Shown: in pieces, positions 8,521 through 28,070 of the stretch
How positions within the stretch are numbered: position 1 is the stretch's first letter
How the letters are laid out: each line of letters opens with the position of its first letter
Assembly (NCBI GenBank): GCA_009778655.1
Contig: WRFZ01000169.1
Location: forward strand, 1-35,551
Source: Candidatus Azobacteroides sp.
Lineage (GTDB): Bacteria; Bacteroidota; Bacteroidia; Bacteroidales; Azobacteroidaceae
Direction: 5' to 3'
Length of the DNA: 35,551 nt
Position numbers and translations under genes: made by a program
The notes under the pieces: generated by a model
Databases searched by the model: none
The model's input: only the letters and a program-made list of their open reading frames with translations
Told to the model about the DNA's origin: nothing

Positions 8521-9243
8521 CTAATACGGAATATTGTTTTCGGAATCAAGCAATGTTTCCCGTATAATTTCGGTAATTCTTTGTTCTTGTTCCTGTCCGA
8601 ACATGAAAAAATGACCGCCCGTAAAGTAATACATCCGGAAAACTCCGGTGATGTAATTCGCCCATTGTTTTACATATCGGTAATCTACCATCCCGTCGTC
8701 TGAAGCGAAGAAGAAAGTGATATCTACCTGTAATCGTTGCTTTTTCTCCTCGTAATGATATAATTCCGAAATGCTTAAATCTGCTCTCAAAACAGGAAGA
8801 AACACATTTGTCAATCCCGAAGTTTCAAAAAAATCGGCGCTTACGCCCCCCATTGTTACTACTCTTTTAATAAATTCGTCATCAACGAGTTGAGATATAG
8901 GCTTATCAACCAATATATTCGGCGGATTTTTTCCGGATAAGAAAACATGCGCCGGCATCGGAAATTTCATTTCCGATAATTCGTGCAATAATTCATAAAT
9001 TAATAAACATCCCATACTATGACCGTAAACAGCATATTCCTCCTCCTCGTAATTAACTTTTTCAACTACCTGCTTTTTTACGTCAACCATCATTTTTTCG
9101 ATTGTGTTACACAAAGGTTCTCTTATTCTGGTGCCTCTGCCCGGAGGATCAATCGCTATTATTTTTATTCCGTCGAGGTATTTATTCCATCGTTGGAAAG
9201 TTACGCCGGAGGCGCCGGCATAAGGAAAACACAACAGCTTCAT
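8521..9243 (-). CDS. Type II thioesterase (alpha/beta hydrolase)
   Basis: A 240-residue stand-alone thioesterase of the kind found beside polyketide and non-ribosomal peptide synthases. It begins with the family's N-terminal pattern LLCFPYAGASGVTFQRW. The nucleophile elbow is YGHSMGC with Ser76. The histidine is probably His211 in TGGHFFMF, and an acidic partner lies near residues 182-187. Such enzymes hydrolyse stalled or mis-primed acyl groups from carrier proteins, and sometimes release the product. None of the three synthases carries a fused thioesterase, so this one could do either. It starts 10 bp after synthase C and precedes the export genes. Confidence 0.93.
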   Translation of the reverse strand: MKLLCFPYAGASGVTFQRWNKYLDGIKIIAIDPPGRGTRIREPLCNTIEKMMVDVKKQVVEKVNYEEEEYAVYGHSMGCLLIYELLHELSEMKFPMPAHVFLSGKNPPNILVDKPISQLVDDEFIKRVVTMGGVSADFFETSGLTNVFLPVLRADLSISELYHYEEKKQRLQVDITFFFASDDGMVDYRYVKQWANYITGVFRMYYFTGGHFFMFGQEQEQRITEIIRETLLDSENNIPY

Positions 9244-9253: not shown

Positions 9254-9856
9254 TTAAATTGTCCATCCAATGATAAAATCGTCCCTATATTTTTTAGTTG
9301 TTATTACTGTGTTTTTAATTTTTAAATCTTCTCCCGTTACCGATTCGATCTCATATTGCTTGGGGTTGCCTTGTAAGCCCACTCCGAGCATTTTCACGTA
9401 GGCTTCTTTGGCTACCCAAAAACGGGTAATCCATTCCGTTTCATCTTTTTTCGTTTTCAGTAAATCCAACTCATGCGGAGTAAATGAGATTTCCGTAAAT
9501 TCTTTATTTCGGGGTTCGATTTTTTCAAGATCTATGCCTACCGGTTTATCCGATATGATAGCAACCGCTCCATTTCCTTTGTGAGCTACGGATACTTCAA
9601 TTCCTTTCACTTTTTCATGTCCGAATACATAAGGCTTTCCTTGTTCATCGTGTCGGACGGCTATTTCTATCGGATAGATAAGGTCTCCGCCCTCCCTTTT
9701 TTGGATGAATTTTCTTACGCCGTCTTTCAATGCGATACGGCTGATCAGATACTCTCTCGCTTGATTGGGGTACAAGGATTGAAAATAGCGTCTCTCTTCA
9801 GAATTAAGAACCCGTTCGTAAAAGAAATCCAAGACGGAAACCTTTCTCCGGGTATC
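9254..9856 (-). other. Fused phosphopantetheinyl transferase domain at the end of synthase C
   Basis: Residues about 1255-1454 carry both Sfp-family signatures: GIDLE for metal binding and W-x-x-KE-x-x-x-K. In PUFA synthase clusters the PPTase (PfaE) is often a separate gene; here it is built into the dehydratase protein. It is the obvious candidate for loading pantetheine on the two ACPs of synthase B. Confidence 0.88.
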
Positions 9857-12800
9857 GAAAAAATAAGAAAATACGTTATCATACGGTTCATCAGCTAAAA
9901 TAAATTCTTTAGGGCGTATGATCAGATTCATTGATTCCGCCGAATAATCGAAGCGACGATTATGCCAACCGTTTGCCACACACCAAACTTTACCGTCTCG
10001 TTTGATTATTACGTTACTGATTACATCGTATTCTTTGATTTCTTTAACGACCATTGTATAATCAAAGACGCCCTTTTGATCTCGAAAGTCCTGATAAAAA
10101 ATCAGTTCGTCCAAGCCCATCGGAAATGTAGCCCGACTTTCCTTTAAGACCATATAACAATAGAAACCCAATAATTGTCCGAGATTATCTAACATGGATC
10201 CTTTTCCTTCCGTTTTGCAGATACGGGCGCGAAGGCCTGTTTTTGTCAAATTCAGTATTTCTAAGATGGATTGATATCGCGGTTCGTGAAACAGAAAATA
10301 AGAATAGATTTGCTTTCTTTGCGGTAAAGCCGGTAAAATATTATCACCCAAGTCAATCTCTTTGGTATATTCTTCCGGAACCGGAGGAAATGTATCGCCT
10401 AAGGTAATATCTCCGAAAACATGGTCCGGCAGCATCCATGAAATACAATCGTCTGTTTTCCATTCTCCGGTTATTTTTGCCTCAAACGGTTCTTTCACCG
10501 ATATCCATTTTTGGACTCCGGCCGAACTTACGCGCAATACTTTCTTACCCGGAATCAGCGCTTGAGCCTGTTCACATAATGTTTCAACCGTCATGGCGAA
10601 AGGAACAACTGGATTTTTTTCTTCCAACGGACAATTCTCCGGTTGGCGGACCACCATGTGGTCAAGCAGGTAGGGATGATCTTCCAAGGTGAAGCGAATG
10701 ATTTGTTCGATTTTAGTACCTGCTCTTCGCCGGTTGCCGGAATCAACCGGCGCCGGATAACTTTCGCTTTGTATTTTTTGAACCGGCCGACCGTTGGTTT
10801 GATACCATTTTAACATGCTTTCCTGTAAGGCGGCAATTTCACGTAAATTTTCATTTGCTTCTTGCAAGACAGCATCTCCTTCTATCTCTTTTACCGAAAA
10901 AGCAGGAGCGGATACAGTCGAAATTTGGGCAGCCTTCTTTTCTATTTGCCGATTCATTATTCTTTGCATAGCAGGAAGTTCTTGTATTTTTCGAACGCTG
11001 AAATCCAAAGTTATCTCCATTTTATTTTGTTTCAGACTGCTTTCCTCTTCTACGATTCCTATCAATTCCTTATTTACTGGTTTTCCTTCGATAAACATCA
11101 AAGCTGCAATGCGCCGGATTTGTTCCAAGCCGGAAAGGGAAGGATGAACGGTAGAAATTACAGCCGAATTTTTCTCTTTTAAAATATCTTCCGTAAAGCC
11201 GGTCAAAGGCCCGATGCCCACTTGGACGAATACCCGTATATTTTCTTGGTTATACAGAATTTCAATCAATTCCCGAAATCGTACGGTTTCTCTTAAATGA
11301 CGGGAGAACAAGGCAAAAATATCTTCTATGTCCTTCGGGTATTCTTGAAGAGTGGTTGAAGACCACAAAGGAACAGCGCCTCCTCTGATGTCTGGTTCCA
11401 ACAAAGCGGTACAAAGGGACTCAAATCGTTTTGTAAATTCTTTAGGAAATAAAGGGGTATGAAATCCCGATTTAAAAGGTAAAATCCGGTAAGAAATCTG
11501 TTCTTCTCTCAATCGTTCCGTAAAGCGGTTGATCGAATCTTCCTTGCCTGCAATCAAGATTTGGTTTCGGCAATTATCGTTTGCCAAATACAGACCTTTA
11601 ATTTCTTTGCACCATGGTTTAACTTTGTCATATCCGCATTCTACCGCTATATAAATGACATCTGTCAACGCTTGCTTTTCCGGATCGTAATCTTCAAACA
11701 GTCGTTCAATGGAATTGAGCGTTATGTAGCGTGCCGCTCCTGCTGCAATCCATTCTCCCGTACTGTGTCCTATGTAAATATCCGGAGTTAATCCTATTTT
11801 TTTCAGCGCTTCGTCCAACAACAAGGAACGACAGAAATGATTGATCGAATGTCCGGCCAACGAGTCATTTTTGACAACTACCTGTTTGAGAGGAATACCA
11901 AAATAATCGCTGACGGATTGTATTTCCATTTTGCCGTTCGGATCAAATCCGGCAAACATAAACGCTACTTTTCCGCCTTCACTCGACATCGGTTGACCGG
12001 AAAACCAGATGTCTGACTTTCCTCTCCAAGGTTGGTCTTTTTGCACCAGCGATTTTGCTTTTTCTAATCTGTCGGCTGTCGGATTAAATACGACCAAACG
12101 GTAATTTCCTTTCGAAACGGTGTAATCTTCTTTTCCCAGTTTGGAAAGAAGTTCTTCTTTGGTTTGAGCCGATAAACAGATTACTTTATCTTTAATCAGT
12201 TCTGCTTTATTGATATGAACGCTTGTTTTTTCCTTCTCGCGATACGGCTCCAGAATGGCATGCGTATTGATACCTCCGAAACCGAAAGCATTAATGGCTG
12301 CTACTAAAGGATATTTTTCTTCATCCCAATCGGTTAATTGCTGTGCCGGCATGAATCGGGATTCAAACATCGCTTTCATGGGTTTTTCGCAGTTTAGGGT
12401 AGGGGGGATTTTCCTGTAATACAACGCTAAAGCCGTTTTTATTAAGCCAGCGATACCGGCGGCGGGCATAATATGTCCGATATTGGCTTTTACCGAACCG
12501 AGCAATGCCGGCGGCGCCGTTTTATCGCCGAAAAATTCGGTGATCGTATTCATTTCCGCCCAGTCTCCCGCTTGGGTTGCCGTTCCGTGCGTTTCTAAAT
12601 AGCCCAATTTTTTCGGATCCATTCCCGATTTCGCCCAAGTCTGTTTCAAGGTTTCCACCTGTCCTTTGGAAGAAGGCGCTAATATACTGACATCCGAACC
12701 GTCGCTTCTCGAACCGTAGGCTTTGATAACGGCGTAAATCCGATCGTTATCGGCTATCGCTTTGTCCAATTTTTTCAAGACGACAATACCGGCTCCTTCA

Positions 12801-13618
12801 CCGATCAACAAACCGTCGGCAGTTTCACTGAATGGAGCCATTACTCCCTTACTCGTAGCCGCTCCGATCACATTAAATACGCTCCAGAAAGAAACGCCTT
12901 GTCCCAAGTGCATGCCGCCGGCCAATGCGATATCGCATTGATCGCTCAGCAACAAGTTGGCGGCATGTTCAACGGCGAGTAGCGAACTGGCGCAAGCTCC
13001 GTCTATGGTATAAGCCGGTCCCTTCAAGTCAAATTTATTCGCTACCAACGACACGACTAAGTTTGGCATGGAGCCGGCGGCGGTATCTGCTTGATAGCGA
13101 CCTAAAGTTGCTTGATATTCTTCTCGAATGGCTTTCATATCCTCTGCTGTTAATTCCGGAAATAAATACTTTGCAATACTTTCTATTACGGCTGAAAGGA
13201 ATGTATATCCGCCTATTCGGGTTTGAGCGACGCCGGCGTAATTTCCTTTGCCCAGTATAAAGCAACAATTTTTCAGAGGGATGTTTTTTTCATACACTCC
13301 GGCGTCTGTCAGCGCTTCTTTTACTAAATGCAAAGCAACCAAATGTTCCGGATCAATCCCCTGTGCAGCCAGCGGAAGAAGACCGTATTCGAGCGGATTG
13401 ATTTTAATCGGAGATACAAATCCGCCTTTATTGAAATAAAAATGATCAATATCTCCCGGTTTGCCGTTGATAAAGAAAACCGGATCAATACGATCTTCCG
13501 GAACATCGGTAATCGAACAGACGCCATTCACCAGATTGTTCCAAAATTCTCCGATATTGTTTGCTCCGGGAAAATAACAGGACATCCCTACAATGGCTAT
13601 ATCGTTACTTTTTCCCAT
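9254..13618 (-). CDS. Synthase C: KS-AT-DH-phosphopantetheinyl transferase polyketide/fatty acid synthase
   Basis: A 1454-residue multidomain protein. The KS occupies about residues 1-460, with active Cys209 (DGACASS), His344 (ETHGTAT) and His382 (NIGHIMPAAG). The AT is at about 545-850, with Ser619 in GHSTGEW and His720 in GFHTP. A low-complexity linker covers about 860-960. A double-hotdog dehydratase-like region follows (about 970-1230), with DHPYLLDH at 980-987 and a DxxxQ motif at Asp1144 (LDNLGQ). A Sfp-type PPTase ends the protein (about 1255-1454), with GIDLE at 1361-1365 and WVAKEAYVK near 1401-1409. It has no ACP and no KR, so it must work on the ACPs of synthase B, which its PPTase presumably activates. 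The gene overlaps the synthase B gene by 14 bp. Confidence 0.93.
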   Translation of the reverse strand: MGKSNDIAIVGMSCYFPGANNIGEFWNNLVNGVCSITDVPEDRIDPVFFINGKPGDIDHFYFNKGGFVSPIKINPLEYGLLPLAAQGIDPEHLVALHLVKEALTDAGVYEKNIPLKNCCFILGKGNYAGVAQTRIGGYTFLSAVIESIAKYLFPELTAEDMKAIREEYQATLGRYQADTAAGSMPNLVVSLVANKFDLKGPAYTIDGACASSLLAVEHAANLLLSDQCDIALAGGMHLGQGVSFWSVFNVIGAATSKGVMAPFSETADGLLIGEGAGIVVLKKLDKAIADNDRIYAVIKAYGSRSDGSDVSILAPSSKGQVETLKQTWAKSGMDPKKLGYLETHGTATQAGDWAEMNTITEFFGDKTAPPALLGSVKANIGHIMPAAGIAGLIKTALALYYRKIPPTLNCEKPMKAMFESRFMPAQQLTDWDEEKYPLVAAINAFGFGGINTHAILEPYREKEKTSVHINKAELIKDKVICLSAQTKEELLSKLGKEDYTVSKGNYRLVVFNPTADRLEKAKSLVQKDQPWRGKSDIWFSGQPMSSEGGKVAFMFAGFDPNGKMEIQSVSDYFGIPLKQVVVKNDSLAGHSINHFCRSLLLDEALKKIGLTPDIYIGHSTGEWIAAGAARYITLNSIERLFEDYDPEKQALTDVIYIAVECGYDKVKPWCKEIKGLYLANDNCRNQILIAGKEDSINRFTERLREEQISYRILPFKSGFHTPLFPKEFTKRFESLCTALLEPDIRGGAVPLWSSTTLQEYPKDIEDIFALFSRHLRETVRFRELIEILYNQENIRVFVQVGIGPLTGFTEDILKEKNSAVISTVHPSLSGLEQIRRIAALMFIEGKPVNKELIGIVEEESSLKQNKMEITLDFSVRKIQELPAMQRIMNRQIEKKAAQISTVSAPAFSVKEIEGDAVLQEANENLREIAALQESMLKWYQTNGRPVQKIQSESYPAPVDSGNRRRAGTKIEQIIRFTLEDHPYLLDHMVVRQPENCPLEEKNPVVPFAMTVETLCEQAQALIPGKKVLRVSSAGVQKWISVKEPFEAKITGEWKTDDCISWMLPDHVFGDITLGDTFPPVPEEYTKEIDLGDNILPALPQRKQIYSYFLFHEPRYQSILEILNLTKTGLRARICKTEGKGSMLDNLGQLLGFYCYMVLKESRATFPMGLDELIFYQDFRDQKGVFDYTMVVKEIKEYDVISNVIIKRDGKVWCVANGWHNRRFDYSAESMNLIIRPKEFILADEPYDNVFSYFFDTRRKVSVLDFFYERVLNSEERRYFQSLYPNQAREYLISRIALKDGVRKFIQKREGGDLIYPIEIAVRHDEQGKPYVFGHEKVKGIEVSVAHKGNGAVAIISDKPVGIDLEKIEPRNKEFTEISFTPHELDLLKTKKDETEWITRFWVAKEAYVKMLGVGLQGNPKQYEIESVTGEDLKIKNTVITTKKYRDDFIIGWTI

Positions 13619-16600
13619 TTTCCAAGCCTTTAAAAAAGTTTTCTACTTCTTCTTTTCCTCCCATGACAATGATTCTGGGAGCTTTTCCGTATTTCAGTTC
13701 TTGTACGAAATAAGCGCCTCCTTCTTTCAACGGAATCAACGATACGCCTCTACGGGCAAATTCGGCTTCCAACGATTCGGAGACCATTCCGGCGCCTTTC
13801 CATGGACCCCAGTTGAATGCTACGATTCGCAAGCCCGGTTTTATTCCGCTCAAAGAAGCTGTGAAATCGAATACGCTGTTGGCGGCCGCATAATCCGTTT
13901 GTCCGATGTTGCCGTAGGAAGAAGCTACGCTGCTGAACAATACGAGCAGTTTCAGATCGTCGTTCATTTCTTCCATGATGACATGCAAGGGATTGACTTT
14001 CGTCTGATATACTTGTTCGAACGTGTCTTTGGTTTTATCCGTAAAGAATTTGTCGTGTAACAAGCCGGCGGCATGAATGATTGCGTCAATTTTTCCGTAT
14101 TCTTTCCGAACGGATTGCAGGAAAGCCCTGAAGTTTTCCCGGTCGGTTATATCTATTGACCGGTAAGTTACTTGAGCGCCTGTTTCTTCTATTTTTGCAA
14201 TCGCTTCCGCTATTTGATTGGATTTGAATATTCTTTGAATTCTTTTTTCAATTTCGACGGGTTTTTTCATTCCTTCCACCGAAATCAAATGCTTCCGAAT
14301 ATCCACCTGCGTTTTCAATTGGGTATATACGCCGGCCGGATCGTCTATTTGTTCCGAACGTCCGACCAATATATAGCGGCAGGGATATTCCGAGGCTAAT
14401 TGTCTTAAAAGTTCGGGCGATATTCCTTGCGCGCCGCCTAACGCGAGTACAACCGAATCTTTGTTTAATTTCAGATTCGTACTTACTTCGGCTTCGTCGG
14501 GAATCAGATCTTCCATCTTGATACCGTCAATGAAACGTTCGGTTCCTTTGTATATGGCTTCGGGAAAAGCGCCATCCACCGTAAGTTCATCCAGTACCAT
14601 TTGAGGAAATGTTTTCGGGTTAAAGGACGTATAAGAAAGAACGGAACGGAATATCATTTCCGGATATTCAAGTTGTAAACTCTTGAGTAATCCCGAAAAT
14701 CCCTGTATTTGCTCGACGCCTTTCAAGTTTTTCTCGTTTTCGATTTTCACGATTATATCGCTGAAAGTGAAGACCCATTTCAAATGTTTCAGCTTTGTTC
14801 CCTGTATCAGGGTAAAGAGATCGTGTATGGTATATTTGTCGGGCGAAGCCGCCGCGTTGATAAGAATCAATCCGTCGTAAGAAGTAATATCCGCATCCGC
14901 TCGGATAATATCCGCTTGTGCGCCGGCTTTTTCCAGAAGCGACTTGGTTTTCGTTGCCAATGAACCTCCGTCGTCGGTTATGGCAAATCGTTTTCCTTCG
15001 ATGAAAATTTTTTCCGGTTTCAACGGATAAGGTTGTAATTGAAACAATATACGGGACAGTTCAACTGGTTTTTGAGGAGCTTCTTTCTGTTTTTCAACAA
15101 CTTCGACGGTTTTTGTCGCCGGTTCGGGAACAACGGTTTCCGCCGGTTTCATTAATTCTTCAATCCAGTTGATTAATTCATTTAAAGTTTTGAGTGAAGC
15201 CATTTTTAAGAATGCATCTTCCGTATTTTCGATATTGTCTCCCAGATTCATCTTATCTTTCAAGTCGCCGATGATTTCCATGCGTTTGATGGAATCAATG
15301 CTCAAATCGCCTTCCAGATCCAAATCCAAGCCGAGCATTTCAGCCGGATAACCGGTTTTGCTGCTTACGACATCTAATAGTATATTTTTAACATGTTCTA
15401 AATCAATAGATTGAAGTTTATCTTGGCCGCTTTGAGAAGTTGTCGCGGTTGCCGTGGTCGGCGCTACGGCTGTTGCATTTGTCGGACTTGATTGGACGTT
15501 TAATTCATCCACCCAAGCAATCAATTCGTTCAATGTTTTGAGTGAAGCCATTTTTAAGAATGCCGCTTCCGTATTTTCAATATTGTCGCCCAAATTCAAT
15601 TTATCTTTCAAGTCTCCGATGATTTCCATCCGTTTGATGGAGTCAATACTCAAATCGCCTTCCAAGTCCATATCCATACCGAGCATATCTATCGGGTAAC
15701 CCGTTTTATTGCTGACTACGTCCAATAGCGTTGTTTTGATTTGTTCGGTAGTCAGAGTCAACGCAGCAGCCGGAGCCGACAAAGTTTTGGAAACAACCGG
15801 TTGGGGCGCTTCTGCTCTTTCAATCGTCTGAACCGTTTGCGCTTTTGTTTCAATAGCTCGCGATGCCTGCGTTTCAATCGCCATCGAACGGATTTCATGC
15901 GGATTCTGACCGAAGTAAGTCAGCATCACATCGCGTTGATTTTGAATCATCGAGCGTACGCTTCCCAAGTATTCCATCATGATTTGATCGGAATGATAAG
16001 CTGTTCCGTTGGGAGATACCGGCGCAAAATTGGAGGTCATCGAAGTTAACTCGGCTTCTGAAACGAGTTTCAAGCCTAAAGGTTCCGTGAAAGGCATTCC
16101 ACCTATATCCGGAAGTTTACCCTCGATAGGATGAGCATATTGTCCGTTTATCTGCCAAAGCATTTTTGGTCTTCTGTATTTTTCCGGCTCATCAATATCA
16201 ATGACTTTAGCGCCTCTTCCTTCGAACAGTTTTCCGATATTGAACGTTTTGCCGGCTGCGAGGTATTGTGCCAAAGCGCTAAGCAGGAATTTGATGCCCT
16301 CTTTTCCGTTCGCTTCGGTTTGTATTGTTGTAATTTTTTTACCTAAAATGGATTGAGCCAAGCTTATCAATATATTTCCGGGTCCGGCTTCAATGAAGAT
16401 GCGAGCGCCGTCGGCATACATTTGTTCGATTTCTTTGCTGAACAGAACCGGTTGGACTAAGTGTTCCGCCATACGTTTTTTGATTGCGCTTCCGTCTTCC
16501 GGATAGGTTTGGGCAGTCGTATTTGACCAGACCGGTAATTTTATTTTTTCAAACGGAACCTCTTTTAATACCTCCGCATAGAAATCTTTGGCTTTAGCCA

Positions 16601-19600
16601 ATAAAGGACTGTGAAAAGCGCAGGCTACGTTAATTTCCTTATATGCAATATTTTGTTTACTGAGCTTTTCCGTAAATGCATCCATTCCCGATGTAGTTCC
16701 CGCTAAGACCGTTTGTTTCGGTGAATTGAAATTTACTGCCCAGACTTCTTTTTCTCCTTTTAACAAGGCATTTAATTCTTCTACCGGAATACTGACCGCG
16801 ACCATTTTCCCTTTATCATCTTGTATGGCATTCAAGATGGAAACGGCTCGTTTTCGACTTAATTCAACCAGTTTTTCGGAATCGAAAGCGCCGGCAAAAC
16901 AGAGCGCCGGCAACTCGCCGTAGCTGTGGCCGGCTACCATATCGGGTTCTATTTCCAAAAAGCGCAAAAATTCGGCAATGGCATAGTCAACAATACCCAA
17001 TACGGGTTGTGCATTCTGCGTATCGGTAATGGTTTTATTTCCTTCTCTTTTTTCCGGTTCACTGAACAAGGTGTGGGGAAAAAGAATTTTCTCGTATTCC
17101 TTGTTTTGAATCAGCAAACGTCTCATGGCGGGAAACGCCACGAAAAGATCGCGTGCCATGTTCACTCGCTGGCTTCCTTGACCGGAAAACAGAAATGCTA
17201 CTTTTCCTTCTTTTTCCTGCCGGAAATACAATTCTTGATGCGTTTCGTTGAAGAGAGCTTCCAGTATTCGCTGGGACAGGTCTGCTACCGAAGACGCCAG
17301 CGCAATGATTTGTACCGGTTTGTCGCTTTCAATAGCTAACGAGTAAGCTAAGTCTTTTATAGATAAACTATTATTAATGGAAAAAAGCCTTTGGACTTTT
17401 TCTAATCTTTCTTTGGCTTCTTCTAATGTATTTCCTCTGAATACAAGTAATTCGGTTGGAAATACGTTCAATGTGCTTCTTTCAGAAATTTCCGGTTTAT
17501 AATTTTCTATTACCACGTGACCGTTTGCACCTCCGAATCCGAAAGCGCTGACGCCGGCAATTCTTCTTTCCGAAGACCAGATACCGGCTCTTGTGTCGAA
17601 AACAAACGGGCTGGTTTTACCGTTATACAGATCAAGCGGTTTTTCGAGATGAAGGGTGGGGGGGATAACGCCGTGATAAACCGATAGAATGGCTCTTAAC
17701 AATCCGGACATTCCGGCTGCGCATTTGGTGTGTCCGATTTGTGATTTTACGGTTCCCAAAGAGGTTTGTCCCGGAACAGCTCCGCCGTCCCAGAAAACGG
17801 AAGAGGTGGAGCGAAATTCGGTACGGTCGCCCACGACGGTTGCCGTTGCGTGAGCCTCGATCAATTCAACTTCATCGGGAGAAATACCGGCCGCACGATA
17901 GGCTCGTTCCATTGCCAAAATTTGTCCTTCTTTGTTGGGAGCAGTCATTCCCAATCCTTTTCCGTCGCTGCTGCCTCCGACTCCTTTAATTACCGCATAA
18001 ATCTTATCGCCGACCCGTTCCGCATCTTCCAATCGTTTCAAAATAATCACGCCGACCCCTTCGCCCATCGTCATACCGTCGGCTTTGGCATCGAACGACG
18101 CGCAATAACCGGTAGCGGATAAGGCATGGGTGGAGGAAAACATGAGGTAATCATTCAACATGCTGTGAAAATCTTCCGCGCCGAGTACCACTATGTCGGA
18201 ATCGTAATTGGTCAATTCCTTACAAGCGATATTCAAGGCGGTCAGTCCGGAAGCGCAAGCCGAATTAACCGTGTAGTTACGTCCTTTCAAATTCAAGCGA
18301 TTGGAAATTCTTCCCGGAGTACAGTTAGACAATAAGCCTGCAAACGTATCCGTAGTAACTGTCGGCAACCGTTTTTTCAACTCTTCGGGAAGTTCGCCGA
18401 CATACTGACGATAGGAAGAACGAAATCCGATTCGGGTTGCTAAATCCGTTAAACCTTCTCCGCCGAAAATCACGGATGTATTTTCCGATTCGTCAGCAGA
18501 TATATCGCTGTAACCGGCATTTTCCAACGCCCGTTTTGCAACCAATAAAGACAATAATTGCAAGGGTTCTATAGAAGCCAATGATTGGGGAGTCAAGCCG
18601 AATTCCATCGGATCGAAATCTATTTCCGGAACGAAACCTCCAGTTTTACAGGAGAGGTAATCGTTATCTGTTGTTTCGGCTCTGTAAAAAACGGATTTGT
18701 TCCATCGAATATCCGGTACTTCCACTACGCAATCTTTTCCGGTAACAATATTCAGCCAGTATTCTTCGATATTTTTTGCTTCCGGCAGGATACATTCCAT
18801 GCCGACCACTGCAATATTCACTGGACGAGACAAGGAAGCCGGCAGCGGAATATTCGTTAATTCCGAAAGAATCTTCCGGTTGTCTATCGCAACGGCCGTA
18901 TGCAGTTTTTCAAGCGTGGTTGCCTTATGAATTAATATGGAAACATCGCCGATCAGAAACATTCCTCTTTCGAGTTGTTCTTCTTCGCTTCGCTTGATTA
19001 ATTGATCACCCTGCGCTTCCTGCCCTTTCGCAGCAATTCGCAAACGTCCGACCATGATGTTTTCCAATGCAACTCGTCGAGTCAAGGAATTGGTTTCTTC
19101 GGAAAGGATGCGTTGTTTTTCCTTAAAAAAGTATTTTGCAAAAGGAGTCGGCAATACTCGGCTCACTTGGCCGGGTACGCTTTCCAAACAAATGGTTTTT
19201 TTATTTTCGATAGACAATTTTTGATATAACGGCGTGATCGCGCCTGTTTTTACGATTTCTTCCGTATAAAGGTAGGAAGTTCCCATCTGTACGCCTATTT
19301 TTACGCCGCGAACAGCTAATCCGGCTGCCATAATAGAAACAAAGGCGGAAGAAAAAGCATCGTGAATGCCTCCGGCAAAGAAAACGCTGAATTTGCTCAG
19401 ATCCTCTTCTTCCTTCATTAAACGGTTAATTTGTTTTTCCCAGAAGAATGTACTCCAATACGGTCCGTCGTGTCCGCCGCTTTCTCTTCCTTCAATAATA
19501 AAATTGGTAATTCCTTCTTTGAGATATTGGTTCATCAATACATCGGATGGAGCGTGAAAAAAGGTGGTGATTCCGGCTTCTACGAATTGTTTTGAAAAAG

Positions 19601-20774
19601 CGGCATGACCGCCTGAAATCAAGACGACCTTGGGCTTTATTTTCAATACAAAGTCGGTTTGTTCACGAAATACATCCGGCAGGTTGTAGCCGAGAAGACC
19701 GATGCCCCAAGTTTGATTTCCCAGTAATTCAGCGGTTTGTTTTACTATATCGTGCATTGACTGTTCTCTCATCACACTCAGCGACAAAAACGGAAGGGCT
19801 CCGGAGTCGGCGACTGCTTTGACAAATTCCGGAACATCGCTGACACGCGCCATAGGTCCTTGTGAAATAGGGTATTTGATTCCCAATTCTTTGGCTAACG
19901 GACTGTCGGGTCCGATTATATTTAATTTTTTCGCTTGAATGATATGACCATGTACGGCTTCATGGAACGCAAAAACGAAATCCCGCAGTTTTTTATGTTG
20001 GGAGAACAAATCGCCGGATAATGCGACGTCTTGTCCCATAGGTAAGTAACAGGTTGAAAGATCGTATCCTTTCAAAAAAGGAAGCAAGTCCTCGAAACGG
20101 GGATTTTCGGGAAGCGCCGGAGAATTTTTCCGTACCAATACTCTGAAATCGTCAATCGCGCTTATTTCGCTCCCGCTCAACTTGGAACAAAGCTCTTTCA
20201 CTTCTTTGGGCGCGCTGCATTCCGGAAAGGCGACCATTTGAGAATCAAAAACGACTCCTTTCGCTCCCAGCGCTAAAAAGGCGGCGGATGTGTGGATTCC
20301 GGCTCCTCCTTGTATATATACTTTTATGCCCGCTTTTCGGCAAGTATCCATAATTCCTTGGAAAAGAATAAAAGAAGATTCTTGCGCTACTTTTCCGGCT
20401 CCTTCTCCGCCTTTGATGACAACGGCGGAAACCTTTTCTTTAATTGCTTTTTTTGCTTCTTCTAATGAGTGAATTTGATGCAGAATTTCGACCGATTTAT
20501 TCACCGGACTCTTCATACCGAAAGGTAACAGAATTTTTGTTACTTGATCCGGAAGTTCTATGTTCGTTAATTCGTCGGAGGCGATACAGATTCCGAAAGA
20601 TTGATTCGTTTTTGAGGATAATTCTTCTACACTTTTTTCCGCGTCCTTTTTATCCCGACCCAAATGCAGGATGGGGAAAGCTCCCGCTCGGATGGTTTCT
20701 ACGGCCAGCCTTACATCCGGTAATTCGAATGGACTTAGAATCAGTAATTCTTTGTTTTCAGTTTCTTTTGCCAT
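13605..20774 (-). CDS. Synthase B: NPD enoylreductase-KS-AT-ACP-ACP-KR polyketide/fatty acid synthase
   Basis: A 2389-residue core synthase. Residues about 8-190 form an NPD-like (2-nitropropane dioxygenase/PfaD-type) half barrel. Residues about 290-580 are a fuller FMN-dependent NPD enoylreductase (ISQGPM, SGGHAAF, ESGGHDGP, FAGGIHDA). The KS (about 652-1092) has Cys840 (NSACASG), His975 in an unusual EAHATAT, and His1015 (IGHTKCAAG). The AT (about 1190-1515) has Ser1284 (GHSYGE) and His1388 (AFHSP). Two ACPs have pantetheine serines at 1712 and 1828 (both LSIDSIKRMEI). The KR (about 1900-2389) has VVLALGGAQGIS, Ser2281/2282 and Tyr2295 (TDYAAANS). The ACP motif and the KS-AT-ACPn-KR order resemble PfaA of PUFA synthases, with a PfaD-like enzyme fused in front. 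It supplies the only carriers in the cluster. Confidence 0.93.
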   Translation of the reverse strand: MAKETENKELLILSPFELPDVRLAVETIRAGAFPILHLGRDKKDAEKSVEELSSKTNQSFGICIASDELTNIELPDQVTKILLPFGMKSPVNKSVEILHQIHSLEEAKKAIKEKVSAVVIKGGEGAGKVAQESSFILFQGIMDTCRKAGIKVYIQGGAGIHTSAAFLALGAKGVVFDSQMVAFPECSAPKEVKELCSKLSGSEISAIDDFRVLVRKNSPALPENPRFEDLLPFLKGYDLSTCYLPMGQDVALSGDLFSQHKKLRDFVFAFHEAVHGHIIQAKKLNIIGPDSPLAKELGIKYPISQGPMARVSDVPEFVKAVADSGALPFLSLSVMREQSMHDIVKQTAELLGNQTWGIGLLGYNLPDVFREQTDFVLKIKPKVVLISGGHAAFSKQFVEAGITTFFHAPSDVLMNQYLKEGITNFIIEGRESGGHDGPYWSTFFWEKQINRLMKEEEDLSKFSVFFAGGIHDAFSSAFVSIMAAGLAVRGVKIGVQMGTSYLYTEEIVKTGAITPLYQKLSIENKKTICLESVPGQVSRVLPTPFAKYFFKEKQRILSEETNSLTRRVALENIMVGRLRIAAKGQEAQGDQLIKRSEEEQLERGMFLIGDVSILIHKATTLEKLHTAVAIDNRKILSELTNIPLPASLSRPVNIAVVGMECILPEAKNIEEYWLNIVTGKDCVVEVPDIRWNKSVFYRAETTDNDYLSCKTGGFVPEIDFDPMEFGLTPQSLASIEPLQLLSLLVAKRALENAGYSDISADESENTSVIFGGEGLTDLATRIGFRSSYRQYVGELPEELKKRLPTVTTDTFAGLLSNCTPGRISNRLNLKGRNYTVNSACASGLTALNIACKELTNYDSDIVVLGAEDFHSMLNDYLMFSSTHALSATGYCASFDAKADGMTMGEGVGVIILKRLEDAERVGDKIYAVIKGVGGSSDGKGLGMTAPNKEGQILAMERAYRAAGISPDEVELIEAHATATVVGDRTEFRSTSSVFWDGGAVPGQTSLGTVKSQIGHTKCAAGMSGLLRAILSVYHGVIPPTLHLEKPLDLYNGKTSPFVFDTRAGIWSSERRIAGVSAFGFGGANGHVVIENYKPEISERSTLNVFPTELLVFRGNTLEEAKERLEKVQRLFSINNSLSIKDLAYSLAIESDKPVQIIALASSVADLSQRILEALFNETHQELYFRQEKEGKVAFLFSGQGSQRVNMARDLFVAFPAMRRLLIQNKEYEKILFPHTLFSEPEKREGNKTITDTQNAQPVLGIVDYAIAEFLRFLEIEPDMVAGHSYGELPALCFAGAFDSEKLVELSRKRAVSILNAIQDDKGKMVAVSIPVEELNALLKGEKEVWAVNFNSPKQTVLAGTTSGMDAFTEKLSKQNIAYKEINVACAFHSPLLAKAKDFYAEVLKEVPFEKIKLPVWSNTTAQTYPEDGSAIKKRMAEHLVQPVLFSKEIEQMYADGARIFIEAGPGNILISLAQSILGKKITTIQTEANGKEGIKFLLSALAQYLAAGKTFNIGKLFEGRGAKVIDIDEPEKYRRPKMLWQINGQYAHPIEGKLPDIGGMPFTEPLGLKLVSEAELTSMTSNFAPVSPNGTAYHSDQIMMEYLGSVRSMIQNQRDVMLTYFGQNPHEIRSMAIETQASRAIETKAQTVQTIERAEAPQPVVSKTLSAPAAALTLTTEQIKTTLLDVVSNKTGYPIDMLGMDMDLEGDLSIDSIKRMEIIGDLKDKLNLGDNIENTEAAFLKMASLKTLNELIAWVDELNVQSSPTNATAVAPTTATATTSQSGQDKLQSIDLEHVKNILLDVVSSKTGYPAEMLGLDLDLEGDLSIDSIKRMEIIGDLKDKMNLGDNIENTEDAFLKMASLKTLNELINWIEELMKPAETVVPEPATKTVEVVEKQKEAPQKPVELSRILFQLQPYPLKPEKIFIEGKRFAITDDGGSLATKTKSLLEKAGAQADIIRADADITSYDGLILINAAASPDKYTIHDLFTLIQGTKLKHLKWVFTFSDIIVKIENEKNLKGVEQIQGFSGLLKSLQLEYPEMIFRSVLSYTSFNPKTFPQMVLDELTVDGAFPEAIYKGTERFIDGIKMEDLIPDEAEVSTNLKLNKDSVVLALGGAQGISPELLRQLASEYPCRYILVGRSEQIDDPAGVYTQLKTQVDIRKHLISVEGMKKPVEIEKRIQRIFKSNQIAEAIAKIEETGAQVTYRSIDITDRENFRAFLQSVRKEYGKIDAIIHAAGLLHDKFFTDKTKDTFEQVYQTKVNPLHVIMEEMNDDLKLLVLFSSVASSYGNIGQTDYAAANSVFDFTASLSGIKPGLRIVAFNWGPWKGAGMVSESLEAEFARRGVSLIPLKEGGAYFVQELKYGKAPRIIVMGGKEEVENFFKGLENGKK
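15156..15749 (-). repeat. Tandem ACP repeat inside synthase B
   Basis: Two ACP units (about residues 1676-1757 and 1792-1873) are nearly identical in protein and clearly repeated in DNA with a period of about 348 bp; GDLSIDSIKRMEIIGDLKDK occurs in the first and an almost identical copy in the second. A Ser/Thr/Ala-rich linker of about 35 residues separates them. The DNA similarity makes the unit prone to copy-number change by recombination. Confidence 0.92.
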
Positions 20775-20811
20775 AAATATTGTTAATTAATGTTATTATT
20801 TTATTCTAATG

Positions 20812-23800
20812 TCAAGCTTTATCTAATATAAAGGGAGGGGTCGTCGTATATGAAATATAAGGCAGCGCTTTGGAAAGTTCATTTTCTTCGGAAGGAACAA
20901 CCTCATTTCCGTTTATCAACCATCCGGTCGAACTTTTCTTGTATTTTTCCGGTTCATCAATGCTGAGAAATGTAACATGTCTTCCTTCAAATAATTTTTC
21001 AATGTGAAAATCTTTTCCTAAAGATAAATACTGTCCCAAAGCTTTCAGGTAGTAACTAATGCCTTCGCTGCTTTTATTCTCGGTTTGTATGGTAGCGACT
21101 TTTTTCCCTAAAACCGATTCGACAAGGCCCAGTTGTACTCTTCCCGGTCCGGTCTCAATAAATATACGGGCGCCGGCTTTATACATATTTTCGATTTGTC
21201 GCGTAAATTCGATCGGTTGATCCAGATGCTTCGCCATATACATTTTGATTGTATCCGTTTCTTTGGGATAGATTTCTCCGGTCATGTTCGACCATACCGG
21301 TATTTCGGGCGATTTGAAATCATAAGCCTTCAAGGCTTCGGCGTATAATTTTTCGGCTTTGGCCAGCAACGGACTGTGAAAAGCGTATTCGCCGTTAATT
21401 TCTTTGCAGATGATATTTTTTCCGGCCGCCTTTTTCAAAAATGATTCTATCCCTTGCGCGGTACCGGCAACGACAATTTGTTTGGGAGAATTGTGATTTA
21501 CGGCCCATACCTCGGTTTCGCCTTCCAATAAAACTTTTAATTCTTCTTCGGTAGTGATTACGGCTACCGATTTTCCTCGATTTTCTTCTCCGATAACATC
21601 GTAGATTGCTTTGGCTCGATCTTCGCTTATAGCGACTAAATTACGACGGGAAAAGGCTCCGGCAAAACAGAGCGCCGGTATTTCTCCGTAACTGTGACCG
21701 GCTACCATATCGGGAATTATTCCCAAAAATCGAAGGCATTCGGCAATGGCTATATCAACGATTCCCAAACTCGGCTGGGCAACGTGTATGTCAATCATTG
21801 TTTTTTCCTGCGCTTCTCTTGTTTCTTCGTCGAAAGCGGTTTCTGGGAAAAGAATCCGGATGTATTCGCTGTGTCGTTTCAACAGCCATCGCATCGGCGG
21901 AAATGCAACGAAGAGATCGCGCGCCATGTTTACGTATTGGCTTCCTTCTCCGGAGAACATAAATGCTATTTTGCCTTCTTTTACGCTTCGGCGATAGATT
22001 TTAAATTCCATTCGGTCTTCCATTACGGCTTTTATTTTTGTCAATAATTCCTCGACCGTATCGGCGACAATAGATACTTGAACGTCCTTATTATTATAAA
22101 GCGCCAAACTGTATGCAATATCGGCTAATCGAAGCGTATTGTTCAACTCCAGCAGTTTTTTTACTTTTTGCATTACGGCTTTTGCTTCATTCAACGAGTC
22201 GCCTCTGAATACAAATAGCTCGGAAGGCCATACTTCAAAGACGGATTTTTCCGGAGGATTCGGCGAATAGTTTTCGATAACGGTATGGAAATTGGTCCCT
22301 CCGAAACCGAAGGCGCTGACGCCGGCAATGCGTTTTTCGCTGTTCCATAATCCGGCGCGTTTATTAAATACAAACGGACTTGTTTGGGGGTTATAGAAAG
22401 CATTCACCGAGTCTATGTGAATGGTAGGAGGAATGATTCCGTGATAAACCGAAAGAACCGTCTTGATAAGTCCGGCAACCCCCGCGGCGCATTTTGTGTG
22501 TCCGATTTGCGTTTTCACGGATCCGATAAAGGTTTGTCCGGGTAAAGCTCCCGATTCTATAAACAAGTCCGTTAAAGCATTTAATTCCACTTTATCGCCG
22601 ACTACCGTTCCGGTTCCGTGCGCTTCAATCAATCCTACTTCGGCAGGAAAAATACCGGCATTTTGATACGCTCTTTCCAGCGCTTTGCCTTCTCCTTTCC
22701 GGCTGGGCGCCGTTACGCTCAAGTTTCGTCCGTCGCTGCTTCCGCCGATGCCTCGAATGACAGCGTAGATTTTATTATTGTCTCGTTCCGCATCTTCTAA
22801 TCTTTTTAAGATTAAAACGCCTATCCCTTCACTCACGACTATTCCGTCGGCGGAAGAATCAAATGCCGCGCAGCGACCTTTGGGAGATAACAGGTGCATG
22901 TGTGAAAACAACAGGTAAGGACCGTATGTATTCGTTAAATCGGAACCTCCAAATACCACCATGTCCGAATGACCGGAGGATAATTCATTGCAAGCAATGC
23001 TGAGAGTGGCCAAAGAAGAAGCGCAAGCGGCATCCACCGTATAATTTTGTCCTCCGAAATTCATGCGGTTGGCAATCCTTCCGGTAAGAAGATTCGGTAA
23101 AATTCCCGAAAAAGAATATTCGGTAATCGGTGGAAGAAACTTTCTTATTTCATCCGGAACCCCTCCGTATATTTGTATAAATGCAGATCGTCCGAGTAAT
23201 TTGGAAACGAGTGAGTTACCCATTCCGTTAGCGCCCATGAAAACCGATGTGTTTTCGAAATCGCATTCGGCAAGATTTTTGTAACCGGCATCTTTCAATG
23301 CGCGTTTTACTACAAGAATACTCAATAAATGAGAAGGTTCGGTCGAAAACAGGGTTTGCGGCATAATTCCGAATTCTACCGGATCGAAATCAATGGTTGG
23401 AATAAATCCGCCCCACTTGGCTAAGCTGAAATCCGTATTTGCTGTTTCGGTTTTGAAAAATGCGTCCTTGTTCCAATGCGAAGCGGGGATTTCGCTGATG
23501 CAATCCTTTGCCAATAAGATATTTCTCCAATATTCATCCAAATTGGCGGCGGCGGGATAGATACATTCCATACCGACGATGGCAATATCCAACGGTTTAG
23601 CAGCCGGACAAACGGGAGAAATGACCTTTAATCCGGATAACAGGTTTTGAGTATCGGATTGCAATTTCTGTTTTTCTCCGGAAGTAGAATCTTTCGGAAC
23701 GGATACTTTGACTTTTATTCCTCTTACCGATACCGGAGCCGCCATAATTGAAACAAAAGCCGAAAAGAAGGCATCGTTGACGGAATCTGAAAATACAAGA

Positions 23801-24597
23801 CTGAATTTTGAAAGGTTTTTTTCTTTTCGGAGCATCTTGGTAACTTGCTTTTCCCAAATGGAAAGCTTGGGAAGCGATCCGTATTCTTCTTTCGAATCCG
23901 TTTCCGCCGTTTCATCGTAACTGACTATTTCCAAGCTTTTTGCTTGGTGAAGGTGTCCGTAAGAAGCTTCATCAACCGCAGTAATAAACCATTTCAAATT
24001 CCGGTAATGTTCAACAAAATCATTAGCTAAACTAAGATCCCAGCCATCGGGAACCGAAACGCTGCACTCCGGAAATAAGGCTATTTGAGAATCAAAGATG
24101 ACTCCCCGTGCGCCTAACGCCAAGAATGCGGCCGATGTATGAATGCCGACATCGCCTTGTACATATACCTTTACATCGTTCTTTAACGATTGATCAATCA
24201 CTTTCCGGAAAATATCAAATGAATCTTCCGTTGCTTCCGTCCCTCTGATAACAATAGAAGAAACTTTAGCAGCAATCGCTTTTTTTGCATCTTCTACAGA
24301 ACCTACCTGACAGAGAATTTCCGCCTGCGTGTTAATTTTAAAATTATAGTCGAACGGAACAATGACTTTGGTCACATTTTCAGGTAAAACAAAATCTAAA
24401 ACAGTCGAAGGACCAATCCATATTCCAAAAGGTTTTCGTGCTTTCTTAGAAAGAGTTGCGATTAATTTTTTTGCCTCTTCACTATTTCCCCCCAAATATA
24501 AAACCCCAAATGCTCCTGCTTTTATTGTATTCAAAATTAATTGAATATCAGTACTTTCAAATGGAGAGAGAATTAGTAACTCTTTTTTTTCTTTCAT
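20812..24597 (-). CDS. Synthase A: vestigial NPD-KS-AT polyketide/fatty acid synthase
   Basis: A 1261-residue paralogue of the first half of synthase B. The ATG at 24597 is preferred (MKEKKELLILSPFES, aligning with B); a TTG at 24606 would add three residues. Residues about 1-297 match B's NPD region but lack large blocks, including the FMN-site motifs. The KS (about 334-777) has a complete triad: Cys525 (DAACASS), His660 (EAHGTGT) and His700 (IGHTKCAAG). The AT (about 873-1205) has Ser969 (GHSYGE) and His1074 (AFHSP). The protein stops soon after the AT, with a tail still resembling the post-AT linker of B (IDEPEKYKK), so it has no ACP or ketoreductase. It probably condenses or transfers chains on the ACPs of B. 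It is the first gene of the tight operon. Confidence 0.92.
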   Translation of the reverse strand: MKEKKELLILSPFESTDIQLILNTIKAGAFGVLYLGGNSEEAKKLIATLSKKARKPFGIWIGPSTVLDFVLPENVTKVIVPFDYNFKINTQAEILCQVGSVEDAKKAIAAKVSSIVIRGTEATEDSFDIFRKVIDQSLKNDVKVYVQGDVGIHTSAAFLALGARGVIFDSQIALFPECSVSVPDGWDLSLANDFVEHYRNLKWFITAVDEASYGHLHQAKSLEIVSYDETAETDSKEEYGSLPKLSIWEKQVTKMLRKEKNLSKFSLVFSDSVNDAFFSAFVSIMAAPVSVRGIKVKVSVPKDSTSGEKQKLQSDTQNLLSGLKVISPVCPAAKPLDIAIVGMECIYPAAANLDEYWRNILLAKDCISEIPASHWNKDAFFKTETANTDFSLAKWGGFIPTIDFDPVEFGIMPQTLFSTEPSHLLSILVVKRALKDAGYKNLAECDFENTSVFMGANGMGNSLVSKLLGRSAFIQIYGGVPDEIRKFLPPITEYSFSGILPNLLTGRIANRMNFGGQNYTVDAACASSLATLSIACNELSSGHSDMVVFGGSDLTNTYGPYLLFSHMHLLSPKGRCAAFDSSADGIVVSEGIGVLILKRLEDAERDNNKIYAVIRGIGGSSDGRNLSVTAPSRKGEGKALERAYQNAGIFPAEVGLIEAHGTGTVVGDKVELNALTDLFIESGALPGQTFIGSVKTQIGHTKCAAGVAGLIKTVLSVYHGIIPPTIHIDSVNAFYNPQTSPFVFNKRAGLWNSEKRIAGVSAFGFGGTNFHTVIENYSPNPPEKSVFEVWPSELFVFRGDSLNEAKAVMQKVKKLLELNNTLRLADIAYSLALYNNKDVQVSIVADTVEELLTKIKAVMEDRMEFKIYRRSVKEGKIAFMFSGEGSQYVNMARDLFVAFPPMRWLLKRHSEYIRILFPETAFDEETREAQEKTMIDIHVAQPSLGIVDIAIAECLRFLGIIPDMVAGHSYGEIPALCFAGAFSRRNLVAISEDRAKAIYDVIGEENRGKSVAVITTEEELKVLLEGETEVWAVNHNSPKQIVVAGTAQGIESFLKKAAGKNIICKEINGEYAFHSPLLAKAEKLYAEALKAYDFKSPEIPVWSNMTGEIYPKETDTIKMYMAKHLDQPIEFTRQIENMYKAGARIFIETGPGRVQLGLVESVLGKKVATIQTENKSSEGISYYLKALGQYLSLGKDFHIEKLFEGRHVTFLSIDEPEKYKKSSTGWLINGNEVVPSEENELSKALPYISYTTTPPFILDKA
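23707..24597 (-). other. Decayed enoylreductase (NPD) region of synthase A
   Basis: The first 180 residues align with B (KELLILSPFE, GIHTSAAFLALGA, FDSQ, FPECS). After a short matched piece (GHLHQAKSLEIVSYD, like GHIIQAKKLNIIGPD in B) the alignment jumps about 150 residues to WEKQVTKMLRKEKNLSKFS. The skipped block in B holds ISQGPM, SGGHAAF and ESGGHDGP. A further block after VRGIKVKV is also gone. The reading frame is kept, so the region was trimmed in frame and is probably catalytically dead but structural. Confidence 0.82.
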
Positions 24598-24602
24598 TGC
24601 AA

Positions 24603-24716
24603 TCAATTTTTTTCAAATAAGTCTTTTTTGTCAATTAGTATAGTTATTTTCAAAATATCAAGTATTTTTGAATAATACAGTTCAAACAAAATAGATAAAC
24701 GATTTTTTATCATCAT
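24603..24716 (-). CDS. Possible 37-codon leader ORF before synthase A
   Basis: An ATG-ATG pair at 24716-24711 opens a 37-codon frame ending with TGA at 24605-24603, five bases before the synthase A ATG and in a different frame. The predicted peptide is rich in Ile, Leu and Lys, with no recognisable family. It would begin about 10 nt after the expected transcription start of the candidate promoter at 24733-24726. The region is very AT-rich, so an ORF of this size could be chance; the tight fit between promoter and synthase start is the only support. Confidence 0.25.
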   Translation of the reverse strand: MMIKNRLSILFELYYSKILDILKITILIDKKDLFEKN

Positions 24717-26206: not shown

Positions 26207-26352
26207 CGGATCGGTTGCTTATTAAATTTTCCAATAATGATACCGCCCGACTCGCGCCGCCTGCTTTCTTGAATGAAGCTTGTATCTTTCTGGCGTTTAA
26301 TCGGATTATCATGCCCGTCTAAAGGTGGAACCGTAAATGCAAATTTTGCCAT
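26203..26352 (-). pseudogene. Deletion remnant of an MGT/UGT-type glycosyltransferase gene
   Basis: A 49-codon frame starts MAKFAFTVPPLDGHDNPI, which closely resembles the start of MGT-family (macrolide/UDP-sugar type) glycosyltransferases, where PPL-x-GH-x-NP is typical. After about 18 codons it loses resemblance. In the +1 frame, about 26303-26223, the same DNA encodes ARKIQASFKKAGG followed by ASRAVSLLENL, which looks like the C-terminal helix of the same family. The simplest reading is that about 1.1 kb of the catalytic middle was deleted with a frame change. The remnant starts 10 bp after the acyltransferase stop and overlaps the MATE start. The family assignment rests on recalled motif patterns. 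Confidence 0.62.
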
Positions 26353-27696: not shown

Positions 27697-28070
27697 AATA
27701 TGAATAATTCAATTTTTGTCAATGTGTTAATTATTATTATTCTCTATGTAAGAAGCGAACTTTCCACACTCAAGGTGGGACTCAAATGTCCGAAAAATTG
27801 CATATTTGTGTTTTTTACTCTTAAATAAAAATTGACATGCACTATTTTGGCGCAAATTTAATAATAAATTTTAAATAATATTGCACTATCTGATTTTTTT
27901 TGCAAAAACAGCAAATCAACGAGTGAGTTACTAAAAAATAGTTCGTTATATTATCATAAAATGATTATGTTGTTATTGAATGTATTATAAATAACTGTTT
28001 CGATTTTTTTAATTGTCTGAAAAAGTCCTGTATTTTTGGTAATGCGTTGAATTACTATTTTGGTGACATA
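27697..28070. other. AT-rich intergenic region between the cluster and metK
   Basis: About 370 bp without a credible gene, the longest non-coding stretch in the window. It holds the putative acyltransferase promoter, two short hairpin-forming sequences on the minus strand (GGAC-ATTTGA-GTCC at 27791-27778 and CCAC-CTTGAGT-GTGG at 27777-27763), and otherwise A/T-rich sequence. No RNA gene, integrase site or repeat family was recognised. Confidence 0.7.
27853..27860 (-). promoter_or_regulatory. Candidate -7 promoter element upstream of the acyltransferase
   Basis: TAAATTTG on the minus strand matches TAnnTTTG. No -33 TTG is found at 19-21 nt. The leader to the ATG at 27696 would be about 150 nt and would include two short hairpins near 27760-27791. 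In such AT-rich DNA the match may be chance. Confidence 0.3.

Follow-up and report, generated by a model that had tools for sequence, protein, structure and literature searches.

A carrier-less ketosynthase-acyltransferase protein, probably an added subunit of a fused secondary-lipid synthase in Candidatus Azobacteroides sp.

Organization of the locus

Three uninterrupted open reading frames (ORFs), here called A, B and C, lie head to tail on the minus strand of contig WRFZ01000169.1 (C169 in our numbering) of a 2.9 Mb draft genome of Candidatus Azobacteroides sp. (assembly GCA_009778655.1, 89.6% complete). The whole 35,551-nt contig is referred to below as the window. We consider it rather probable that B and C form a known kind of secondary-lipid synthase, and that A is an added subunit acting in trans on B. 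The novelty of the locus is protein A, not the layout of B and C; the initial annotation of this sequence listed A among the other proteins and did not single it out, while it is the distinctive part of the system.

20812..24606, minus strand: protein A, 1264 amino acids (aa), non-catalytic TIM barrel and remnant of the catalytic enoylreductase (ER), then ketosynthase (KS) and acyltransferase (AT), without acyl carrier protein (ACP)
13605..20774, minus strand: protein B, 2389 aa, ER-KS-AT-ACP-ACP-ketoreductase (KR)
9254..13618, minus strand: protein C, 1454 aa, KS-AT-dehydratase (DH)-phosphopantetheinyl transferase (PPTase)

Domains were called with Pfam, scanned over 21 window ORFs, and with hidden Markov models (HMMs) built for this analysis. 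The frame of A opens with TTG, the ATG at 24597 being the start used in the initial annotation. The order proposed there, dead ER-KS-AT / ER-KS-AT-ACP-ACP-KR / KS-AT-DH-PPTase, is borne out by both kinds of models on the three ORFs. Motif reading also confirms the proposed intact triads: the KS cysteine, both histidines and the lysine are all present in A, B and C, and no chain-length factor (CLF)-type KS is found among the three, each having Cys-His-His. The ATs of A and B have the motifs GHSYG/AFH, and that of C has GHSTG/GFH. The ER of A had been called dead, and this holds for its orthologues as well, as described in the next section.

Protein A

24049..24585, minus strand: N-terminal TIM barrel, aa 8-186 (custom HMM; eight strands in the AlphaFold2 model; kept in 5/5 orthologues)
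23689..23901, minus strand: remnant of the catalytic ER barrel, aa 236-306 (HMM, motifs, AlphaFold2), motif I and the motif III histidine gone
22267..23598, minus strand: KS, motifs DAACASSL, HGTGT and GHTK (HMM, motif reading)
21145..21963, minus strand: AT, GHSYG and AFH (Pfam, motif reading)

The ER motifs QGPMARVSD and ESGGH, together with the C-terminal lid, are gone from the window A and its four orthologues, and the ER of A is predicted to be dead, with the catalytic barrel lost in all five. Model confidence is good for the first barrel (pLDDT of the whole A model, 77.5), which weakly matches FabK/NMO and other TIM barrels, with the best E-value 7e-6. All five proteins stop 54–64 residues past the AT, ahead of any ACP.

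A is present in five genomes (the window's, G398, G401, G430 and G431), all from the same genus, kin of Candidatus Azobacteroides. Scanning of named genomes with an ER alignment yielded at least 592 candidates, 588 of them ER relatives, from which the best 80 loci were kept; among these, A is found only in L095, which is the G398 locus. By a count made by eye, 68 of the 80 loci have an ER match that starts no earlier than base 3000. Whole-genome searches of ten further draft genomes with the cluster revealed no stand-alone A. G399, from the same genus, cannot be judged, as its two B–C pairs are cut at contig ends. L095 (G398:C79) comes from Candidatus Azobacteroides sp. isolate Mp193P4bin3, which shares the genus with the window, and Mp193 denotes the termite Microcerotermes parvus in the available text of PMC7024585; by this kinship, the window presumably originates from a termite gut as well.

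In the tree of A and B, which drew on 17 of the 80 loci, the five A proteins form one clade (support 100/100) with the same branching order as in B, and an AU test does not reject a single clade uniting A and B of the genus (p-AU 0.28). Judged from these sequences, A appears to be an old duplicate of the first half of B, made before the five A-bearing species split. For G430 vs G431 (dS ~0.5), dN/dS is 0.19 in the ER region of A, 0.17 in the ER of B and 0.18 in the AT of A; hence the retained non-catalytic barrel seems to be under purifying selection (dN/dS 0.19).

These data bear on the strongest competing explanation, that A, a tandem duplicate of B cut short, has no synthetic role and is being lost. 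The loss of ACP, KR and the catalytic ER barrel is what such a relic would show, and erosion is seen nearby, as the adjoining glycosyltransferase gene has decayed and C of G398 lacks its AT. Still, the reading frame of A is open in all five genomes, the proteins constitute one old clade mirroring B, dN/dS is low throughout (0.07 for KS, 0.18 for AT and 0.19 for the ER region, G430 vs G431), and the KS and AT motifs are intact, making a relic improbable.

Two candidates were discarded. A second match to A, in G442:C46 (a Dysgonomonas-labelled genome), proved to be a B fragment with ACP and KR, and the solved structure 7zma, seemingly a close relative of the A KS (478 bits), owes its score to two KS domains of a single chain added together.

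Two further observations concern extra gene copies. In the actinobacterial locus L206 (G551, 5517-17239), an ER-KS-AT-ACP-KR protein is followed by a separate KS-AT-ACP protein, a further instance of an added KS-AT subunit, in this case from another branch. The G399 contigs C324 and C340 (L075, L076) carry two different B–C pairs, one nearest to L096 (Tannerellaceae-labelled), and these pairs may bear on the origin of A.

Protein B

20247..20750, minus strand: N-terminal NMO-like TIM barrel, aa 9-176 (AlphaFold2 model), probably non-catalytic
19020..19898, minus strand: catalytic FabK-like ER barrel, aa 293-585, QGPMARVSD and ESGGH (profiles, AlphaFold2, Foldseek)
17499..18827, minus strand: KS, NSACASG and HATAT, unusual for the family (HMM, motif reading)
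16365..17195, minus strand: AT (Pfam, motif reading)
15501..15758, minus strand: ACP1, GDLSIDSIKR (translation, HMM)
15153..15410, minus strand: ACP2, GDLSIDSIKR (Pfam, translation, HMM)
13797..14450, minus strand: KR (Pfam)

The ER of B scores 95.8 bits with the FabK model TIGR03151, below its cut-off of 453, and just 14.8 bits with the PfaD-family model TIGR02814 (cut-off 449); as a control, an ORF beside the canonical cluster L203 scores 588 bits with the PfaD model. The AlphaFold2 model of this region (pLDDT 91.3) consists of two eight-stranded barrels, and Foldseek places it closer to FabK (E=3e-18) than to PfaD (4.5e-8). Profiles and model together point to a FabK-like ER outside the PfaD family. 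The motif III histidine of the second barrel is kept in all 80 ER proteins from the 80 loci, while the equivalent position of the first barrel is occupied by L (30), K (20), R (10), Q (6), H, W and I (2 each), T and N (1 each); the first-barrel pattern was missed in the remaining six of the 80 proteins, one of which (L158) has His by eye. As the histidine is not conserved there, most family members probably have a non-catalytic first barrel.

Three residues before the cysteine of the B KS, Asn replaces Asp in all five A-bearing genomes. Out of 78 B KS domains in the 80 loci, 76 have Asp at this position, one has Asn (L095, that is, G398) and one was left unread (L160), so the change coincides with the presence of A. 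Moreover, HATAT in place of HGTGT is seen in the window B alone, the 78 domains of the 80 loci reading GTG. Such changes, along with the ancestral motifs kept in A, would be expected if A and B formed an asymmetric KS pair with one KS drifting toward a CLF-like role. At the same time, the cysteine and histidines of B remain in place, and no consistent difference in rate between A and B is observed; KS domains are generally known to form homodimers, too. We regard this pairing as quite unlikely.

Genes for B are also found in metagenome-assembled genomes (MAGs) labelled Clostridiales, Coriobacteriales or Propionibacteriaceae (L100, L121, L131, L160, L166, L171, L173). The six of these seven that are represented in the A/B or KS trees belong to the gut clade, which reflects either genes transferred in the gut or mistakes in binning.

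Protein C

12242..13612, minus strand: KS, PfaC side of the tree, triad intact (HMM, KS tree, motif reading)
11105..11905, minus strand: divergent AT, GHSTG and GFH (Pfam, motif reading)
9944..10726, minus strand: DH, polyketide synthase (PKS) type by family; His and Asp invariant in 18/18 aligned sequences (HMM, alignment)
9260..9898, minus strand: Sfp-type PPTase, P1a QGKP and P1b' VSVAH (Pfam, translation)

The window DH alone has no Pfam match at 0.1. Its family, in which 13 of 18 sequences hit PS-DH (best 9.5e-7) and none hits FabA, is the basis for calling it PKS-type. Search of PDB with the window DH alone found nothing, and the family profile retrieved only the CurK DH, with E=0.2. FabA-type domains are absent from A, B, C and the neighboring genes according to Pfam, FabA/FabZ elsewhere in the genome not having been searched for, while two control PfaC proteins match FabA (~1e-84).

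These results, together with the ER assignment, weigh on the possibility of a genuine polyunsaturated fatty acid (PUFA) synthase, re-partitioned among three proteins. In its favor, the KS of B adjoins the Ars type and then canonical PfaA, the KS of C is near canonical PfaC, matches to the PfaA model TIGR02813 are strong if sub-threshold, and one control PfaC has a PS-DH stretch as well. On the other side, no FabA-type dehydratase/isomerase is seen among the scanned cluster genes, whereas the control PfaC proteins have FabA; there is no CLF, the ER is outside the PfaD family, and nothing exceeds the PfaA cut-off. A PUFA synthase is very unlikely.

The arginine following GHSxG in the ATs of A and B is absent from that of C (by eye). 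C of G398 (L069/L095, 1080 aa) has no AT and reads KS-DH-PPT, so, barring an assembly error, this close relative may do without the AT of C. In C of L101 (Apibacter muscae), the KS has Tyr for Cys, both histidines replaced and a very long branch; this KS is dead, and C is otherwise complete.

The PPTase motifs P1a, x(G/D)xP, P1b', hShxH, and P0, hRxhLS, have been defined for types M and N (Shulse and Allen, 2011; PMC3098273, available text). The window PPTase has P1a QGKP and P1b' VSVAH, and no P0 by eye, as stated for these types.

A PPTase behind a DH also occurs in enediyne-type PKSs, with the layout KS-AT-ACP-KR-DH-PPTase; these were considered as possible relatives for that reason.

Distribution and KS phylogeny

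The DH-PPTase part of C as a query has matches in 123 of 395 phylum genomes and in 21 of 45 family genomes (E 0.001). Strong matches (E <1e-100) are limited to the window's genome, G210, G245 and G265 in the phylum set, and to the window's genome, G398, G399, G401, G430 and G431 in the family set; all weaker ones are confined to the PPTase part. In the best 80 loci, 75 proteins have the order ER-KS-AT-ACP(1-3)-KR and 73, the order KS-AT-DH-PPT, the rest being cut, split or altered. The hosts are Chryseobacterium, Pedobacter, Chitinophaga, Dyadobacter, Flavobacterium, Mucilaginibacter, Apibacter, Aquimarina and MAGs, some of them from termite gut and several labelled as other phyla. Nearly all of these loci thus have the fused pfaDA/pfaBC-PPTase layout, which is a common one among Bacteroidota.

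The KS tree (77 rows, SH-aLRT, quick run) draws on 21 of the 80 loci, less eight rows that were dropped (the B and C proteins of L102, L113, L126 and L146); it holds no HglE, enediyne, Shewanella or Azotobacter KS, and was midpoint-rooted, as no FabF was recovered as an outgroup. The canonical Pfa loci in it are actinobacterial, identified via TIGR02813 (matches in 12 of 296 genomes, three of which exceed the cut-off) and interpreted by domain content; L203 was also recognized by the neighboring ORF that scores as PfaD. The KS domains of A and B group with Bacteroidota/gut B-type KS (support 100) and then with actinobacterial B-type (99), followed by Ars-like KS of Beijerinckia/Methylosinus (fork 92) and canonical PfaA (89). 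The KS of C groups with other C-type KS (Bacteroidota, 99; together with actinobacterial C, 85), near canonical PfaC KS (94). The CLFs fall outside on long branches, so this junction is unsure.

Comparison with known systems

Fused pfaDA and pfaBC-PPTase genes have been described in two Flavobacteriales and likened to Renibacterium salmoninarum (PMC13291983); clade VI of that study includes Aquimarina TRL1 and Flavobacterium N502540. The layout as worded in its available text is that of B plus C, and by sequence we assign B and C to this type. The Aquimarina sp. RZ0 locus L163 has the same two proteins, with KS domains in the same B and C clades as those of the window. In the available text, the PMC13291983 clusters adjoin lines of PKS and non-ribosomal peptide synthetase (NRPS); the window differs in that no NRPS or PKS line is seen within it, and in having A.

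B and C also appear to fit type N of Shulse and Allen, who defined types M and N, with Chitinophaga pinensis and Chryseobacterium gleum representing type N, and Frankia and Renibacterium, type M (PMC3098273, available text). Other species of Chitinophaga and Chryseobacterium carry B and C, while C. pinensis, C. gleum and R. salmoninarum are outside the best 80 loci. The likeness of types N and M to B and C is by description, and the available text mentions no A-like protein for them. Likewise, available published descriptions of the fused pfaDA/pfaBC-PPTase type name no product and no A-like subunit.

The Ars system (type P; Azotobacter, Beijerinckia) resembles B in having the ER ahead of KS-AT-ACP-KR and, in Beijerinckia, resembles C in the fusion of PS-DH to PPTase. 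Its KS domains are the next neighbors of type M/N B KS on the tree, Azotobacter ArsA not being among the rows. It differs in that its DH-PPTase protein lacks KS-AT, type III PKS-like partner genes are annotated and A is absent; no type III PKS is found by Pfam among the 21 window ORFs. ArsA of this related type makes C23-C25 fatty acids (PMC4824345, available text). A collinear line A–B–C, each module used once for a short polyketide, would account for the three KS-AT sets and the gene order, yet it is the least credible reading, given that ACPs are present in B only, other B–C clusters show no A, type P has no KS-AT beside the DH, and the ArsA type, to which the family is closely related, is described as a maker of long chains.

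Canonical PfaABCDE shares with the window the KS-AT-ACPn-KR core and the proximity of PfaC KS to the KS of C, and differs in having CLF, FabA-type DH, an ER of the PfaD family and a separate PPTase. In the Schizochytrium PUFA synthase, ERb and ERc form a heterodimer and both bind FMN (PMC13311796, available text). As in the window, two subunits bear ERs, giving a precedent for ER contacts that join subunits, while in the window one ER has lost its catalytic barrel.

This comparison bears on what the initial annotation had proposed beyond the domain order. A secondary-lipid-synthase-like system in Bacteroidota is supported by the layout and the KS tree. Of the Pfa activities, the KS-AT-ACPn-KR core is present and the PPTase is fused, while the FabA-type DH is absent; for the ER, the label "PfaD-like" must be dropped given 14.8 bits against a cut-off of 449, with the domain FabK-like instead. 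Nor do B and C constitute a distinct synthase class, since the suggested search for domain order across genomes recovered the order of B in 75 proteins and that of C in 73 among the best 80 loci, and the layout has been published. The suggested KS phylogeny places A and B with B-type KS and C with C-type KS, inside the clades of the known layout, in a tree without HglE rows. A known family with the same order does exist, while no product is named for it in the available literature.

Genomic neighborhood

3170..4786, minus strand: TolC-type outer membrane channel (profile scan)
4810..5919, minus strand: HlyD/RND-type periplasmic adaptor (profile scan)
5980..7242, minus strand: MacB-type permease 2 (profile scan)
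7246..8496, minus strand: MacB-type permease 1 (profile scan)
8521..9243, minus strand: stand-alone thioesterase (Pfam), also in G398 and G401
24815..26206, minus strand: MATE transporter (profile scan), beside the cluster in several relatives too
26208..26352, minus strand: glycosyltransferase remnant, first 17 and last ~30 codons in different frames, middle gone (34.3 and 31.2 bits)
26362..27696, minus strand: PapA-like acyltransferase, condensation-domain family (best solved match PapA5 8s6l, E=1e-7)
27750..27797, minus strand: possible remnant of a second glycosyltransferase (29.3 bits)

The thioesterase, permeases, adaptor and TolC genes are downstream of A–B–C, and the MATE and PapA-like genes upstream; three Flavobacteriales relatives have two PapA-like acyltransferases. 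The glycosyltransferase remnant at 26208-26352 sits between the MATE and PapA-like genes, and the gene is whole in relatives; the best score among 300 dinucleotide shuffles of the region is 26.6 bits. No copy of the operon glycosyltransferase is found elsewhere in the window's genome, at 89.6% completeness.

Accessory genes were searched in 30 loci, 13 of which have the glycosyltransferase. It is accompanied by a free ACP and a hydrolase in five Bacteroidota loci (L064, L065, L067, L197, L199) and six Actinomycetota loci (L088, L208, L209, L211, L212, L213), and by the free ACP in L071 and L073. Part of the set without the glycosyltransferase is seen in L198, L201 and L210, the remaining loci being cut or having none. 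In relatives, these three genes adjoin C, and their presence in many of them suggests that the product is perhaps a glycolipid.

Further upstream, a SAM-II riboswitch (29491-29549, minus strand) precedes the S-adenosylmethionine synthetase gene (28133-29398).

Discussion

The preferred reading, a known synthase with A acting in trans on B, may be summarized as follows. B and C would act together, iteratively. The PPTase of C would arm the two ACPs of B, the ATs would load malonyl units and the KS condense them, with each round reduced fully or partly by the KR of B, the PKS-type DH of C and the FabK-like ER of B. The predicted product is a long acyl chain, mostly saturated or hydroxylated; PUFA of the Pfa kind is unlikely because the DH is PKS-type and the FabA-type domain is missing. 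The thioesterase might free the chain, or the PapA-like acyltransferase pass it to an acceptor, before its export via MATE and MacB-HlyD-TolC. In many relatives the glycosyltransferase probably acts too, a step that would have been lost in the window. A would have lost ACP/KR and the catalytic ER barrel and kept the non-catalytic barrel, KS and AT; most likely it docks on B through barrel and KS dimer contacts, uses the ACPs of B in trans and takes over some condensation rounds.

Several observations weigh against this scheme. The docking of A on B is inferred from sequence. The dN/dS of KS is 0.180 for B and 0.072 for A in G430 vs G431, and 0.084 for B and 0.114 for A in the window vs G398, where dS is near saturation; as the B KS is not faster in every pair, division of labor between the two KS domains is not uniform. 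The lack of FabA, with FabA/FabZ in trans not searched for, is the sole DH argument against PUFA, and PS-DH alone does not rule out Pfa kinship, as the control PfaC L205 carries a PS-DH stretch (7e-16) besides its FabA domains. Free ACP in the window's genome (89.6% complete) is represented by weak matches alone (E 0.02 and 0.13), and the window's permeases lack the adjacent ABC ATPase that G401, G430 and G431 have, so partial decay may have affected this copy. Finally, the glycolipid idea comes from relatives, several of which have no glycosyltransferase.

For the family as a whole, the "PfaD fusion" label is corrected: the ER half is made up of two TIM barrels in tandem, and the catalytic histidine is not conserved in the first. 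The range of products is narrowed, as PUFA is disfavored by the FabK-like ER and by the PKS-type DH in the absence of FabA, and the accessory set common to many Bacteroidota and Actinomycetota loci suggests a glycolipid. Having kept the first barrel and dropped the catalytic one, A provides a clean natural experiment on the purpose of the former. More speculatively, and with considerable doubt, A may have founded a two-armed iterative synthase, its ACP-less KS-AT arm held on B by a dead structural TIM barrel, where the KS domains either split condensation rounds or form an asymmetric pair setting chain length without a true CLF. If true, this would be a second evolutionary origin of the control of chain length by a KS partner.

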